Below are positions 1 through 48,487 of a DNA stretch of 48,487 bases, one piece after another. Positions within the stretch are counted from its first letter, which is position 1. Each line of letters begins with the position of its first letter. Under the pieces are notes generated by a model. That model searched no databases. It saw only the letters and a list, made by a program, of their open reading frames with translations, and had not been told where the DNA came from. The translations under genes were made by a program, and so were the position numbers. This stretch comes from a virus, in IMG/VR virus record IMGVR_UViG_3300046740_000511, positions 1-48,487 of that record. The stretch is one strand, 5' to 3'.

Positions 1-15
1 GTCGCAATGATGAAC
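1..15. repeat. Terminal direct repeat, left copy (candidate cos overhang)
   Basis: GTCGCAATGATGAAC is repeated exactly at 48473-48487. It may be an assembly overlap of a circular molecule or filled-in cohesive ends. The position, about 90 bp upstream of the terminase small subunit gene, is where lambda-like phages carry cos. Confidence 0.8.
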
Positions 16-4049: not shown

Positions 4050-4562
4050 TCACGCCGCGCTACGCTTCGCGGCGCGGTAGGCGGCAGCGAGCTCGCCCCG
4101 CTGCGCGCGAGAGCAAACGCGGGCGACCTCGCCGCTGCAATCGGCATCGATCGCGATGATGAGCTCGACGCATCGGGCGATCGGGCCGTAGCCGTCGATC
4201 CAGGCGGTGAGCGCATCGAGCAGCGCCTCGCGGGCGCTGTAGGCGTCGAGGCGCCCGGTGAGAACGGGGCGGCCCTTTTCGACGCGCACCTCGGCGAGAC
4301 GGTAATCCGCGACGCCGGCGGCCGCCTGGAGGCGCTCGAGCTCGGCGGTGAGCGCCGGGCCGCGCAGGGCGTCGAGGCGCTCGCGAGCGGCCTTGCAGGC
4401 CTCGCACGCGTGCTCGACGGTGCGGCGTCCGAAGTGGCCGACCGTGTAGCGCCAAGCGGTACCGCGGCCCGTGCAACCGTGAATCGCCGCCCACACATGC
4501 GGGAACGCGCAGCAGGCCTTTGCAGTCTTACCGTTTTTCCAAGTCGTCGTTGCCATACCCAT
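4050..4562 (-). CDS. Cassette gene 4, hypothetical protein with Cys/His cluster
   Basis: 170 residues from ATG 4562 (MGMATTTWKNGKTAKACCAF). Residues ~15-60 hold several Cys and His (ACCAF, IHGC, VGHFGRRTVEHACEACKAAR) that could bind zinc. The remainder alternates helix and strand (ADYRLAEVRVEKGRPVLTGR, then ALLDALTAWIDGYGPIARCV). It is the second-largest gene of the array. No known family recognised. Element E4 precedes it and hairpin 3 follows. Confidence 0.6.
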   Translation of the reverse strand: MGMATTTWKNGKTAKACCAFPHVWAAIHGCTGRGTAWRYTVGHFGRRTVEHACEACKAARERLDALRGPALTAELERLQAAAGVADYRLAEVRVEKGRPVLTGRLDAYSAREALLDALTAWIDGYGPIARCVELIIAIDADCSGEVARVCSRAQRGELAAAYRAAKRSAA

Positions 4563-4622
4563 CAGAACGACAGCTCGCGCCGAACCTGGAGCGCGCAGCG
4601 CGAGATCGCTCGCCGGAACGGC
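4554..4622 (-). promoter_or_regulatory. Repeated start element, copy E4
   Basis: Full-length copy: GGCGAGCGATCTCGCGCTGC, CTCCAGGTTCGGCGCGAGC, TTCTGATGGGTATG. It ends in the start codon of 4050-4562. Confidence 0.7.
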
Positions 4623-6318: not shown

Positions 6319-6371
6319 CAGATCGGCACCGCGCGCCGAACCTGGAGCGAGAGCGCGCAAATCGCTCGCCG
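6310..6371 (-). promoter_or_regulatory. Repeated start element, copy E7
   Basis: Contains GGCGAGCGATTTGCGCGCTC, GCTCCAGGTTCGGCGCGC and GATCTGATGGGTATG, ending in the start of 5776-6318. A short GTCCC-GCTTT-GGGAC hairpin lies just upstream (about 6385-6400). Confidence 0.65.
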
Positions 6372-10990: not shown

Positions 10991-13330
10991 ATGGTCAGAA
11001 AACGCAATCGAGTGACGCCCGAGGCCGCGGGGCGCCCGGGCCCGCGCAAGCAAGGATCCAAAGCGGGCCTCCGCGAGGTCGCCGGTGGGTTCTCCGTCTC
11101 GATCAGCGCGGGCAGCGCGCGCGACGCGGCGGGCAACCTCGCCGAGCGCCGACAGTTCCGCTTGCGGATCCGGATCGACGAATCGTTTGGCTCGCCCGAG
11201 GCGCGCCGCGCGCTCGCTCGCGCGCGCCTCGCCGATATCGTGGCGATGCGCGACGCGCTCGTCGCCGTCGATCGCGGGGCGCAGGCCGCGTTTTTGATGC
11301 GCAAGGCGGGCGCCGTCGCGAGCGATCCGGAGAAATTCAATTTCGCGATCGCGGCCGCAAATGTCGTGATGAGCCGCCCGAGCGAGACGGCGAGCGAGGC
11401 CGTCGCGAAGTACTCGACGTGGGGCCTGCTCGCGCGGGCCTGGTGCAAACAGGAACTCGCGGCGCAGTATCCGAACGCGGGTTATCGCAAGTCGAGCGGC
11501 GAGAGTACCGACGAGCCCCGCGTGGAATTTCTGTGCAAGTACATCGCCGATGTACCGCTCGCGACGTTCAACGACGACGACTATTGGCGCGCGATGCGCC
11601 CGGCGCGCGCGCACTGCAACACAGACTCGACGTTTCGAGCGTACGCGCAAGTGTGCCGGCGCGTGATCAAGATCGCGTGCGAGCTGCGGATCATCCCCGG
11701 CTGGCCGTTGTCGGCGGTGTGCAAGCTGCCGATCGTGCCCAAGTCGAGCGCGCCGGTGTTTCCGTTTCTGTATCCCGATGAGTATGTGCGGCTCGTGCGC
11801 TGCGCGGAGATCGCGATCGAGTGGCGCGTGCTCTGGGGATTCATCGTGCGCGAGGGCCTCCGAATCAGCGAGGCGTTCCGCATCCAATGGCGACACCTTT
11901 GCCAGCTCGACAACGGCCGATGGCTGCTCGACGTGCCCGAGAGTAAGACGGGCCGCGCGCTGAACTTTGTTTTGAACGTGGGCACGGGCGAGGTGCTCGA
12001 GGCGTTCCGGCTGCTGCGGCCCGACCTCGACGGACCCTTTACTTGGATGCGAGCCACGAACCTAAAGAAGGCGGCCGAGCGGGTTCGCGATCACGTCGCG
12101 CAGTCGGGCACGACGCGAGCCCGGTTGCTCTTCAACGATGGCCGCTTGCGGCGCCTGCGCGAGCACGACCTCCGCTCTACGTTCGTGACTTGGTGCAAGC
12201 TGTCGGGCGTCGACAATGAGACGATCAGCCAACACACCGGGCACGAGTCGAGCACGATGATCGCGCGCTACAATCGGAGCAAGGCGACGATCGAGCACTT
12301 GGGCCTCGCGCGGTACCTGCCGCTCGATCAAGCCATGGGCATCGATGTGCGCGGCGAGCTCGTCGCCGGGCGCCGCGTGCTCGAGCTCTGCAGCGGTGAG
12401 ACGATCGAGGCGATCGGCGAATTGACGCAATCGTCAATTCCGTCCGCGCAAGAAACGAGCGCGGCCGCCGGCGAGACACCCCCCCCGGTGTCCGCTGCGG
12501 TCGCCGCCGAACCCGGGGCAGCGCCGGCGGGGAGTGATGGCCTCGACGCTACGGCTGCCCCGGGCGAGGCACCTGTTACCTCGCCGTTACGTGCGCCCGT
12601 CGGGCCGGGTAACGGCGAGCGATCGGGCGACGCCCTCGCGGTCGCGCTCGCGGCGGCGACGCGGCGCGGGGGCGAGCGGCTTGCCCGTTCGCTCGCACGC
12701 CCTCGCCGGACGCCGCAGCGGGGCGCCCACGGGCAGCGCGAGGCCTCGGTGGACTACGCGGGCGCCGCCGGCGCGGATCTAGTCCACCCGTGCGAGGCCT
12801 GCGGCGGCACGGGCACGGATTTCAGCCACGGCGGGCCGTTCGTGTGCGGCGCGTGCGCCGGCGCGGGCGCGAGCGAAACCGCCCCACGCTGGACCAGCCG
12901 TGACAGCAGCCGTGACACCGCCGGCGAGCAGCAGTGTCGGGCCGTCGCTGCAAACGTCGAAACCAGCCTGTTTACTGCTGTGTGCGCGAGGGGGGACTCG
13001 AACCCCCAAGCCTTTCGGGCGCTGGAACCTAAATCCGAACCCGGGCGACCGGAAGCAACAAAACCCGGGGGAACGGCGCCTGCGCCTGCGCCAGACGCGA
13101 CCGGAAACGGCGAGGTGTCACGGCCAGCCGTGACACTGCTCGGGCAGCTCCAGGCCGCGCACCGCCGGGCAAGCGATGATTTCAACTGGACGGCGGCCCG
13201 GGCCCTGGAGCCACTGATCGAGGCCGAGCGGGTCCGGCTATCGAACGAGGCCGCGGCCGCCCGGGCTGCCCCTCCGGAGCCGGTCCGGCTCGAGGTCGTG
13301 CGCGCGCAGCGCAAGGGGGGTGCCTCGTGA
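10991..13330 (+). CDS. int: Tyrosine recombinase (integrase) with a long C-terminal extension containing attP
   Basis: 779 residues. The catalytic domain shows the tyrosine recombinase set: R291 in GLRISEAFRIQWRH, H392 and R395 in EHDLRSTF, H418 in TGHESST and nucleophile Y427 in ARYNRSK. Usual phage integrases end near here. This frame continues for ~350 residues: an Ala/Pro/Gly-rich linker, a DnaJ-like zinc motif (CEACGGTGT and CGACAGAG, ~600-626), the attP core (codons ~665-682) and a helical tail (LLGQLQAAHRRASDDFN). Integration at the core would replace the sequence after codon ~665 by host DNA. The frame being open across attP may be selected or a consequence of GC-rich composition. Confidence 0.9.
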   Translation: MVRKRNRVTPEAAGRPGPRKQGSKAGLREVAGGFSVSISAGSARDAAGNLAERRQFRLRIRIDESFGSPEARRALARARLADIVAMRDALVAVDRGAQAAFLMRKAGAVASDPEKFNFAIAAANVVMSRPSETASEAVAKYSTWGLLARAWCKQELAAQYPNAGYRKSSGESTDEPRVEFLCKYIADVPLATFNDDDYWRAMRPARAHCNTDSTFRAYAQVCRRVIKIACELRIIPGWPLSAVCKLPIVPKSSAPVFPFLYPDEYVRLVRCAEIAIEWRVLWGFIVREGLRISEAFRIQWRHLCQLDNGRWLLDVPESKTGRALNFVLNVGTGEVLEAFRLLRPDLDGPFTWMRATNLKKAAERVRDHVAQSGTTRARLLFNDGRLRRLREHDLRSTFVTWCKLSGVDNETISQHTGHESSTMIARYNRSKATIEHLGLARYLPLDQAMGIDVRGELVAGRRVLELCSGETIEAIGELTQSSIPSAQETSAAAGETPPPVSAAVAAEPGAAPAGSDGLDATAAPGEAPVTSPLRAPVGPGNGERSGDALAVALAAATRRGGERLARSLARPRRTPQRGAHGQREASVDYAGAAGADLVHPCEACGGTGTDFSHGGPFVCGACAGAGASETAPRWTSRDSSRDTAGEQQCRAVAANVETSLFTAVCARGDSNPQAFRALEPKSEPGRPEATKPGGTAPAPAPDATGNGEVSRPAVTLLGQLQAAHRRASDDFNWTAARALEPLIEAERVRLSNEAAAARAAPPEPVRLEVVRAQRKGGAS
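12419..12440. promoter_or_regulatory. Perfect 9-bp inverted repeat inside int
   Basis: GAATTGACG (12419-12427), CAAT, CGTCAATTC (12432-12440). It sits after the catalytic domain coding region and ahead of attP. It is AT-rich relative to its surroundings. It may be a regulator or recombination accessory site, or a terminator-like hairpin for a shorter int transcript. Confidence 0.45.
12897..12917 (+). promoter_or_regulatory. Candidate integrase arm-type sites, left (two direct repeats)
   Basis: GCCGTGACA occurs at 12897-12905 and 12909-12917 as direct repeats 12 bp apart, 66 bp left of the attP core. Together with the inverted pair at 13115-13136 they form the P and P' arms expected for a tyrosine integrase. 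Confidence 0.6.
12983..13036 (-). other. attP: attP core: 3' part of tRNA-Leu(UAG)
   Basis: Read on the minus strand from 13036, the sequence contains the anticodon loop and 3' stem (GGATTTAGGTTCCAG), a variable arm (CGCCCGAAAGGC), a perfect T arm (GGGGG-TTCGAGT-CCCCC, 13007-12991), the 3' acceptor strand CTCGCGC and discriminator A (12983). The 5' half of a tRNA is absent and the 5' anticodon strand does not pair, so this is not a functional tRNA. Partial tRNA identity next to an integrase is the classic attP signature. Confidence 0.88.
13115..13136. promoter_or_regulatory. Candidate integrase arm-type sites, right (inverted pair)
   Basis: GTGTCACGGC (13115-13124), CA, GCCGTGACAC (13127-13136): a perfect 10-bp inverted repeat of the same GCCGTGACA motif that lies left of the core. 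It is 79 bp right of the attP core. Confidence 0.65.
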
Positions 13331-13473
13331 CCGTGGTTTGGTTTCTCGGCTCCGTCGCATGCGGGATGTTCCTCACGCGGCGACCGCGCCGCCCCTGGAT
13401 CGTGATCGTGGTCGCCGCCTGCGGCTGGACGTTGTGCCTCGCCGGCGCGGGGCGTGCTTGGGGGCTCTGGTGA
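13327..13473 (+). CDS. Small membrane protein
   Basis: 48 residues from GTG 13327, overlapping the int stop (GTGA). Two hydrophobic segments (VWFLGSVACGMFL and WIVIVVAACGWTLCLA) separated by RRPRRP suggest a two-pass hairpin membrane peptide. Function unknown; the coupling to int means it would be affected by any change of int translation. Confidence 0.45.
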   Translation: MTVVWFLGSVACGMFLTRRPRRPWIVIVVAACGWTLCLAGAGRAWGLW

Positions 13474-18169: not shown

Positions 18170-19030
18170 ATGATCCTCATCAAAGAGGAATTCGTGGGCG
18201 GGGAAAAATGGCGACGAGCGGTCAAGCTCGGCGGCAGCGATGCGATCGCGATGTGGCTGGCCCTCAAATGCTACTGCTCGCAACACCCGGACACCGAGGG
18301 CTTTGTGCCCGCGGAGGTCCTCGACGATCTGCCTGGAGTGCCGCGCCGACCGCGCAAGGCGCTCCAGGCATTGATCGAATGCGGGCGCCTGCTGCCCGGG
18401 GGCGAGCGCGGGAAAGGTTTCGTGGAGGTCGCGGAGCACGGTTGGCAAATGCACGACTATGGCGATCACTCGGTGTCGCCCGAGGAAATCGAGCTGCGCC
18501 GGGAAAAGGCGCGCGTGCGGCAGCAGACCCACCGCGCGAACAAGCGCCGCGAGCTCGCCGCATTCAAGCGCCTCGCGCTGCCCGAGGGCGAGGGCGTCTT
18601 ACCCGCCGCAGGGCCACTCGAACCGCCGGGGGGTGTCACACCGGGCGAGCGTGACAGCGAGCGTGACAGCGAGCGTGACAGCGAGCGTGACACGGGCGCG
18701 ACGTCACACGCGAGCGGGCGCCCGCGCGAGGGCGAGCGCGCGCATGCGCCTACGCGGGCGGGCGCGCATCCCTCCCCAACCCTCTCCAACCCAACCAAAA
18801 AATCTCTGCGAAGTCTGGCAAGCACGATCCGGGATGCGCGCGAGCTCGAACCCTGCGCCGAACACCGGCGTTTCGCTGCCGAGAGCGGCGTCGATCTCGA
18901 GCCGTTGCTCGAGCAGATCCGCAGCTCGCCGGGCATCGCGGCCCTGAGTGCCGACGAAATCCGGGTACAGCTCGCCGCGCTGATCGTGAGGGCGGCCGAG
19001 CAGCGGCAAGCCTGCGGGGGTGCCGCGTGA
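18170..19030 (+). CDS. Replication initiator-like protein (phage O / primosomal type)
   Basis: 286 residues from ATG 18170 with GGGAGG upstream. The N-terminal ~110 residues are a winged-helix domain of the lambda-O/DnaD type: SDAIAMWLALKCYCSQHPDT, then DLPGVPRRPRKALQALIECG and a wing ending HGWQMHDYG. A charged linker (EIELRREKARVRQQTHRANK) leads to a low-complexity region with the repeats ERDS, encoded by DNA iterons, then a C-terminal helical part (VDLEPLLEQIRSSPGIAALS). This architecture, with iterons inside the initiator gene, is that of lambda O. No helicase gene is visible, so host DnaB is probably recruited. Confidence 0.7.
   Translation: MILIKEEFVGGEKWRRAVKLGGSDAIAMWLALKCYCSQHPDTEGFVPAEVLDDLPGVPRRPRKALQALIECGRLLPGGERGKGFVEVAEHGWQMHDYGDHSVSPEEIELRREKARVRQQTHRANKRRELAAFKRLALPEGEGVLPAAGPLEPPGGVTPGERDSERDSERDSERDTGATSHASGRPREGERAHAPTRAGAHPSPTLSNPTKKSLRSLASTIRDARELEPCAEHRRFAAESGVDLEPLLEQIRSSPGIAALSADEIRVQLAALIVRAAEQRQACGGAA
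18647..18693 (+). repeat. Four tandem 12-bp iterons, candidate replication origin
   Basis: GAGCGTGACAGC begins at 18647, 18659 and 18671, with a variant GAGCGTGACACG at 18683. It encodes (ERDS)n. GTGTCACA (18634-18641) lies just before it and CGTCACAC (18702-18709) just after. Iterons within the initiator gene are the lambda-type origin layout. Confidence 0.6.
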
Positions 19031-38200: not shown

Positions 38201-39667
38201 TTAGGTGGGAGCCTCGAACCCCTGGAACGCTGCGATCTCCGCGGCGATGAGGCTGTCGAGAAAGGGGATCGTGTTCGGGCCGATCTGGCCGCCGTTTGCG
38301 ATCGGAGTGCTCGGCGAGTCGGCATCCGAGGCCGCCCCGAGGAGCGCATTGCCGGCCGCAGCGCGCAGGGCTGACGGCATGACCGCGCCCACGCCGTCGC
38401 CGTCGGAATAGGTGAGGGTTTGAGCGACGCCGTCGATGAAGATCGCTAGCCTCGCGTCACCGGTGAGCGAGCCGTCAAACTTGATATAGATGCAACACCA
38501 AACGCCCGCGCTGAGCACATTGGGGGTAACCCCCTTGCGCGCGTTGAAATTGTCCGAATAGACAAACCCCGCGACGGTCGCGTTGAGCGCCTGCAAAATA
38601 AAGCGGCGATTGCTGCCATTGTTCCGCGCATCGTAGAGGGTCTGTGAGGAGCCAACACTCGCTGGCTTGAACCAGATCAGCAGGCCCCATTTGCTCGTGG
38701 CGGTTTGCGACGGCGAGACGGGCCAAAGGTGCACGTCGCCGGGCGAATCGAATACCATCGTGGGCAGGCCGTTCGCGCTCGCGCCCACCGCTGCCCGACG
38801 ATCGACGTCCGTTTGCACGACCGGGCTGCCCGCGTTCAAAACATCGACGATCGAGGGGGTCCACTCTCCGCCGCTTTGCTGGCTCGCCGCGAGGCGCAGC
38901 CATCCCGCCATTTTCGACGCCGACACCGTGAGCGTGCCCGACAGTTGCAGGCTCGGCAGCGTGAGCGAGCCCTGTAGGGCCATCGTAAAATCGCCCGACA
39001 GTTGCAGGCTCGGCAACACGAGCGCGCCCTGTAGGGCCATCGTAAAGGCGCCCGACAGTTGCAGGCTCGGCAACACGAGCGCGGCCGCGAGCGTGCCCAC
39101 CGTGGGCGAGACGGCGCCGGCGAGCTGGAGCGACGGCAGGGCGAGCGTACCGACGAGCACGGGCAGCGGCGTCACGTTGCCCGCGAGCTGCAACCCCGCG
39201 GGCAGCGAGAGCGCACCGTCGAGCGGTACCGCCGGCGCGATGGATCCGTCGAGGGTAAGGCTCGGCAGCGCGAGCCCTACGGGGGCGAGCTGGATAATCG
39301 CCCGTTGGTACACCTCGAGCAGCAGCACGACCACGCCCAGCGCGAGGTCGGGCAGCACCTCGATCACTTTCCAGGTACCGGGTAAGCCTTGGCTATCGAA
39401 GAACGTCGCGATCCAAGGCTTGCGACTCGCATCGGCGACGGCCTCGGGCAGCGCGGGCAGCGCGGCGCGCGCGACAGAAACGGACGCCCGTCGGCCAGCC
39501 ACCGCTTGACCCGTCTCCGGATCGATGGTCTGGCCGATGTCTGTCGTGAACCCGTTTACGTAGGTAGCCACGCCGAGCGGCGAGGTCAACGTAACGGGCC
39601 ACGCGAACCCCGAGGTGTCCTCGAGGATCGCGCGCGCGTCGGCTTTGGCTTGTTCCCGGAGCCCCAT
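38201..39667 (-). CDS. Head completion-like protein with repeats and LamG-like C-terminus
   Basis: 488 residues. The N-terminal ~125 residues (MGLREQAKADARAILEDTSG, then DIGQTIDPETGQAVAGRRAS) are a conserved connector/head-completion-type module of tailed phages that usually stands alone (~125-140 residues). Here it continues with ~17- to 19-residue repeats (LVLPSLQLSGAFTMALQG) and a C-terminal ~230-residue domain of the LamG/concanavalin type: MVFDSPGDVHLWPVSPSQTA, WGLLIWFKPASVGSSQTLYD and VWCCIYIKFDGSLTGDARLA. LamG-like domains usually bind glycans or proteins. The fusion suggests a surface-exposed neck or collar with a host-binding function. Confidence 0.75.
   Translation of the reverse strand: MGLREQAKADARAILEDTSGFAWPVTLTSPLGVATYVNGFTTDIGQTIDPETGQAVAGRRASVSVARAALPALPEAVADASRKPWIATFFDSQGLPGTWKVIEVLPDLALGVVVLLLEVYQRAIIQLAPVGLALPSLTLDGSIAPAVPLDGALSLPAGLQLAGNVTPLPVLVGTLALPSLQLAGAVSPTVGTLAAALVLPSLQLSGAFTMALQGALVLPSLQLSGDFTMALQGSLTLPSLQLSGTLTVSASKMAGWLRLAASQQSGGEWTPSIVDVLNAGSPVVQTDVDRRAAVGASANGLPTMVFDSPGDVHLWPVSPSQTATSKWGLLIWFKPASVGSSQTLYDARNNGSNRRFILQALNATVAGFVYSDNFNARKGVTPNVLSAGVWCCIYIKFDGSLTGDARLAIFIDGVAQTLTYSDGDGVGAVMPSALRAAAGNALLGAASDADSPSTPIANGGQIGPNTIPFLDSLIAAEIAAFQGFEAPT
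38937..39090. repeat. 57-bp tandem repeat inside the connector gene
   Basis: Units start at 38937, 38994 and 39051 (about 2.7 copies, CCCGACAGTTGCAGGCTCGG repeated). They encode the LPSLQLSG...MALQG repeats of the fusion. Units 2 and 3 are almost identical, which indicates recent duplication. Confidence 0.85.
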
Positions 39668-48472: not shown

Positions 48473-48487
48473 GTCGCAATGATGAAC
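48473..48487. repeat. Terminal direct repeat, right copy (candidate cos overhang)
   Basis: GTCGCAATGATGAAC, identical to bases 1-15. Confidence 0.8.

Follow-up and report, generated by a model that had tools for sequence, protein, structure and literature searches.

A family of phage tyrosine integrases with a tRNA-type attP inside the coding frame and a conserved C-terminal tail that is probably exchanged on integration

The window, by which we mean the whole stretch of DNA analysed, is the 48,487-bp IMG/VR virus record IMGVR_UViG_3300046740_000511, with a G+C content of 67%. It carries a long integrase reading frame whose product consists, in order, of an arm-binding-like N-terminus, a tyrosine recombinase domain, a variable linker, an attP segment and a conserved tail. 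The features of the locus are:

10991..13330, plus strand: integrase reading frame, 779 aa (ATG at 10991, TGA at 13330)
11765..12283, plus strand: Phage_integrase (PF00589) catalytic domain; the Tyr427 codon is 12269-12271
12356..12982, plus strand: low-complexity linker, codons 456-664, with dN close to dS and predicted to be disordered
12894..12917, plus strand: left arm-type sites 1 and 2 (CCAGCCGTGACA and GCAGCCGTGACA), 12 bp apart
12983..13036, minus strand (tRNA sense): attP core, equivalent to the 3′ portion of tRNA-Leu(UAG), which begins with the anticodon stem-loop and ends with the discriminator base
13114..13135, plus strand: right arm-type sites, inverted GGTGTCACGG and direct CCAGCCGTGACA
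13136..13327, plus strand: conserved tail domain past the crossover region, a predicted helical hairpin followed by the conserved EPVRLEVVRAQR
13327..13473, plus strand: small downstream ORF of 48 aa; its GTG start and the integrase stop share bases (GTGA), as read from the sequence
13470 and 13634: further similar stop-start overlaps

We compared the window with four IMG/VR relatives (L002, L003, L004 and L026), five genomes that are related to each other and thus not fully independent. Residues 259–431 of the integrase match PF00589 (E 6e-14), the protein is also matched by the phrog_1 integrase, and R291, K319, H392/R395, H418 and Y427 (the R-K-H/R-H-Y set) are invariant in all five family members. 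By this catalytic set we assign the product to the phage tyrosine recombinases, in agreement with the first-pass annotation, which had placed the full set before the end of codon 427. The N-terminal beta-beta-beta-helix region may be an arm-binding domain, a prediction of low confidence. An AlphaFold model of the full-length integrase is poor (pLDDT 40), with only the tail predicted better, and a search of PDB sequences with the integrase profile gave no match. The linker differs in length among the relatives with the frame kept throughout. CxxC-type motifs resembling zinc ribbons, each of them different, occur in the linkers of the window (12788-12876), L003 and L004 and are absent from those of L002 and L026. 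The suggestion that such a motif forms part of the system has to be dropped, as the match to DnaJ is not significant (E 0.34) and two of the five genomes lack it.

The 54-bp core corresponds to integrase codons 665–682 and is read through without a stop, leaving about 97 integrase residues beyond it; the earlier estimate of a tail lost after attP was thus right as to its location past the core and slightly too high as to its length, given as about 100 residues. Arm-type repeats bracket the core, with CCAGCCGTGACA at 12894 and 13124, GCAGCCGTGACA at 12906 and an inverted GGTGTCACGGC at 13114, such that GTGAC repeats stand on both sides of it (12900, 12912 and 13130); a GTGAC triple with offsets of 0, +12 and +230 occurs only once in the window. 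As core and bracketing repeats all lie within the frame, the integrase coding sequence holds a complete attP, and the proposal that attP lies inside the 779-codon frame, which stays open through the tRNA-Leu(UAG)-type core and the arms, is borne out. Rfam made no tRNA call on the core, as expected for half a tRNA. The arm motif varies within the family, being GCCGTGACA in the window and L002 and GTGTGACC in L003 and L004, and both sides of the core change together, as expected of sites bound by one arm-binding domain.

A second GTGACA array at 18645-18692 of the window was considered as a set of attP arms and rejected, since genome G002 keeps GTGACA there though its arms read GTGTGACC. This array consists of four exact tandem 12-bp copies of GCGAGCGTGACA with an inverted GTGTCAC nearby, and has counterparts in G001 (12124-12160, GTGACA at 12-bp spacing) and, less regularly arranged, in G002 near 18562-18607. 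It possibly represents replication iterons inside an initiator-like gene, with a motif that resembles the arm sites but does not co-vary with them.

The geometry of the site is fixed to the base in all five genomes: the direct right arm lies exactly 218 bp past the second left arm, and the span from the first to the third arm is exactly 230 bp (12 then 218 bp). The distance from the tyrosine codon to the first arm varies widely (631, 643, 670, 793 and 379 nt) and is always 1 modulo 3, and that from the third arm to the tail motif VRLEVVRA, 144–192 nt, is 0 modulo 3 in every genome. Cores of 53 nt are offset by one additional nucleotide, placed before the core in L002 and L004 and after it in L003 and L026, and, depending on the side that compensates, the core is translated into a different peptide (LEPKSEP or NLNPN). 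This compensation fits attP geometry and reading frame alike and does not separate them, since the fixed 230-bp spacing would by itself keep the frame across the core; it is the two distances on either side of the arms, together with the constraint on the tail, that decide for a reading frame. Neither the core peptide nor the linker is conserved; what is kept is the tether and not its sequence. L026 came from a search with a different profile, made once the layout was already established from the other four genomes, and it fits every prediction: its frame is open, its arms are spaced 12/218, and core and tail are both present, with a linker of about half the length.

Several further observations bear on whether the frame is translated past attP. 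It is open in the post-catalytic region of the window and of all four relatives, while order-2 Markov simulations of this region for the first four genomes were open in only 0.3–3% of cases per genome; the long open frame first noticed beyond the catalytic domain is thereby upheld. The other two forward frames contain stops across the linker in each of the four genomes counted. The tail, a domain of some 62–76 residues situated beyond the core, is under purifying selection in the integrase frame, with dN/dS of 0.16–0.51 (mostly 0.16–0.4) and an excess of third-position changes in nine of ten genome pairs (P <0.005). The integrase stop overlaps the next start (GTGA or ATGA) in the window, L004 and L026, and L002 (TAG) has no such overlap. 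Four lines of evidence, namely the open frame, the distances modulo 3, the constraint on the tail and the stop-start overlap, thus indicate that translation runs past attP.

Modelled alone, the tail is predicted to form a helical hairpin with pLDDT 93–97 over both helices, and a PDB fold search with it found no match. Every match in searches with the tail alone lies on a contig that also bears the integrase. Its extreme C-terminus is variable, ending in GGAS, GGR, GAS, GGRR or GGSR. Between L004 and L002 or the window, dS is about 0.3–0.4 in the tail and about 0.7–0.8 in the catalytic domain, a contrast that suggests the exchange of tails by recombination near attP.

We sought the chromosomal counterpart of the core with a strict pattern covering the cores of the window, L002, L003 and L004. 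It matched four sequenced genomes, all Betaproteobacteria and all inside tRNA-Leu (tag) genes, and the Chitinilyticum core differs from that of the window only around the variable arm. As the pattern included the exact window core and gave only these four other matches, every genome scanned lacks the exact core; the collection does not include the host species. A looser pattern applied to 369 genomes of the class returned a single match, a genome already known. From its sequence we assign the core to the tRNA-targeting attP sites, in which the 3′ part of the tRNA would restore the tRNA gene, the exact host gene being absent from the scan. Neither an integrase scan of genome contigs nor a profile search of 399 genomes from one order revealed an integrated prophage. 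In simulated integrations into each of four genuine tRNA-Leu(UAG) genes, the int frame of the window ran on for 67, 85, 12 and 27 host residues, so use of this core would yield a hybrid protein with host residues in place of the tail. The claim of an attP in the C-terminal part of the integrase gene, with a hybrid C-terminus on integration, is strongly supported by the five-genome comparison, though no integrated copy was found. Such an exchange may act as a switch of integrase stability or activity, as the first-pass annotation suggested.

The locus was at first framed as unlike known systems, a view that does not hold, as the Myxococcus phage Mx8 follows the same logic (PMC6070905, PMC4701971). 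PMC6070905 describes an Mx8 attP within int and a new 3′ end of int on integration, and PMC4701971 reports that integration exchanges 112 residues of IntP for 13 and lowers its activity; the logic, covered by these two reviews, was published in 1996–1999. The Islander paper (PMC4383910) gives Mx8 and SSV as the known cases of an integrase that reaches across attP, and very few elements have been described whose integrase rewrites its own C-terminus on integration (PMC4701971). According to a further review (PMC8371274), only archaeal integrases disrupt the gene that encodes them, which stands in the strict sense, as Mx8 and the window family alter int and do not disrupt it.

The two systems share a tyrosine integrase, a tRNA-derived attP core with arm repeats in the 3′ part of the int frame, GTGACA-type repeats (two left, one right) flanking that core inside the frame, and same-strand genes downstream of int. 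In the Mx8 record, the core and a pair of TGTGACAGCGG repeats are marked within intP, and we found a third GTGACAG 201 bp further on. Expressed as arms, the Mx8 (L013) copies of GTGACAGC at 6370, 6381 and 6582 are separated by 11 bp and, across the core, by 201 bp, a layout closely like the 12/218 of the window family, and seen here without specific homology of the integrases. The differences lie in the core, which is a tRNA-Leu(UAG) anticodon-type sequence of 53–54 bp here compared to an annotated 29 bp in Mx8, in the long variable linker ahead of the arms, and in the sequence of the tail. The Mx8 core sits in an Asp tRNA gene. As for homology specific to the Mx8 Int, hhalign found the recombinase fold only (probability 71%) and blastp at 1e-4 found no match, nor did blastp find other proteins common to Mx8 and the window.

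Comparisons drawn earlier with SSV and mycobacteriophages capture the shared logic of an attP within a gene, but both are more distant than Mx8. In SSV-type archaeal integrases attP also lies within int and integration rearranges the gene (PMC8371274); there, however, integration leaves an N- and a C-terminal part of the gene, both inactive, whereas here the catalytic domain (259–431) lies entirely upstream of the core (665–682) and would stay intact on one side. In phage BPs and its relatives, known for integration-dependent immunity, attP lies in a coding gene and integration alters the C-terminus of its product (PMC4557955), but the gene altered is the repressor. A similar picture is found in streptococcal ICEs in rumA, where the att site is in the integrase gene and the C-termini of excised and integrated forms differ (PMC4701971), though theirs is a serine integrase and no tRNA is involved. 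The nearest named homologue is the integrase of virus Rctr16k (KX853514), with 32% identity over residues 151–449; unlike the window protein it has 401 aa, ends after the catalytic domain and has no tail. By eye, a tRNA-Leu(CAA)-like 3′ half can be discerned in Rctr16k (L025) at 4527-4590, outside the gene and ~600 bp downstream of it, and is likely to be an unannotated attP. With a tail-less integrase and the tRNA-Leu-like half outside its gene in this relative, the tail extension appears to be lineage-specific.

In the arrangement that we propose, a complete tRNA-Leu(UAG)-type attP, comprising two left arms, the 53–54 bp core and the right inverted/direct arm pair, lies inside the translated 3′ part of int. 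Free circular phage would make full-length Int, with a folded tail of ~65 residues tethered to the catalytic domain via a disordered linker whose coding DNA contains attP as well. On recombination with the tRNA gene, int would be severed from its tail codons: in the prophage it would keep its N-terminal, catalytic and linker parts and read on, via the 5′ half of the tRNA in antisense, into host DNA, and the tail codons would stay at the opposite prophage end without a start. We hold it likely that attP has this anatomy within int and that the tail is swapped on integration. By analogy with Mx8, full-length Int would most probably be the integration-competent form and the hybrid less active or differently specific, stabilising lysogeny; this precedent favours a weaker prophage form, though we would put the chances that the effect runs in this direction at roughly even. 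A more specific and more tentative idea, which we consider possible but would not bet on, is that the tail acts as a directionality module encoded in cis, granting a licence for attP × attB recombination to the episomal form alone, with recombination removing the licence and attP geometry and frame being co-selected.

The main rival to a full-length competent Int is a tail that acts negatively, as a degron or inhibitory domain, such that integration removes it and leaves the prophage Int more stable or active. In lambda retroregulation, integration separates sib from int, a classical precedent for an element in that position, and both the location of the tail past the crossover and its conservation would fit any cis-acting element lost on integration. 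However, a predicted helical hairpin with a variable extreme C-terminus is unlike a terminal degron, and Mx8 runs the opposite way, its hybrid being less active (PMC4701971); we regard a negative tail as unlikely. Less probable still is that the tail is translated separately, as a small protein with an internal start of its own (e.g. GTG 13130), the open frame being a by-product of G+C content and fixed attP spacing. An in-frame GTG, part of GTGAC, is indeed present in the right arm of all five genomes, where the arms keep their 230-bp span, yet nothing like a ribosome-binding sequence precedes it, the distance from tyrosine codon to first arm varies by more than 400 nt with the frame kept and free of stops in all five, and the other forward frames are interrupted in the linkers of the four genomes counted. 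A tail kept solely so that ribosomes reach the stop-start overlap, which would couple translation of int with that of the operon behind it while the phage is circular, would account for GTGA/ATGA at the int stop of three genomes, but coupling needs no conserved amino acids, on which the tail is evidently selected, and L002 does without the overlap; we think this very improbable. Least credible is a chance open frame behind an Int that really ends after the catalytic domain: G+C-rich DNA, a low-complexity linker in which dN nearly equals dS and the early stop of the Rctr16k integrase speak for it, but it was already disfavoured by a frame kept in five of five genomes, purifying selection on the tail and the occurrence of the tail only alongside the integrase.

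The logic of an attP in int and an integrase C-terminus exchanged on integration is already known from Mx8; the family, the type of tRNA and core, and the tail are new. If integration proceeds as proposed, these phages would form a second bacterial lineage, unrelated to Mx8, in which the integrase C-terminus is rewritten on integration. The five genomes permit an evolutionary test, in that the tail is under selection, the attP peptide is not, and the geometry of attP does not vary by a single base, and they offer a compact system for testing directionality built into the integrase gene rather than a separate excisionase.

The ends of the window (1-15 and 48473-48487) are identical over 15 bp (GTCGCAATGATGAAC) and those of G002 over 127 bp, terminal repeats compatible with phage genomes that are circular or complete and carry an unintegrated attP. 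A 57-bp tandem repeat (2.6 copies, 93% matches) lies at 38936-39083 of the window.
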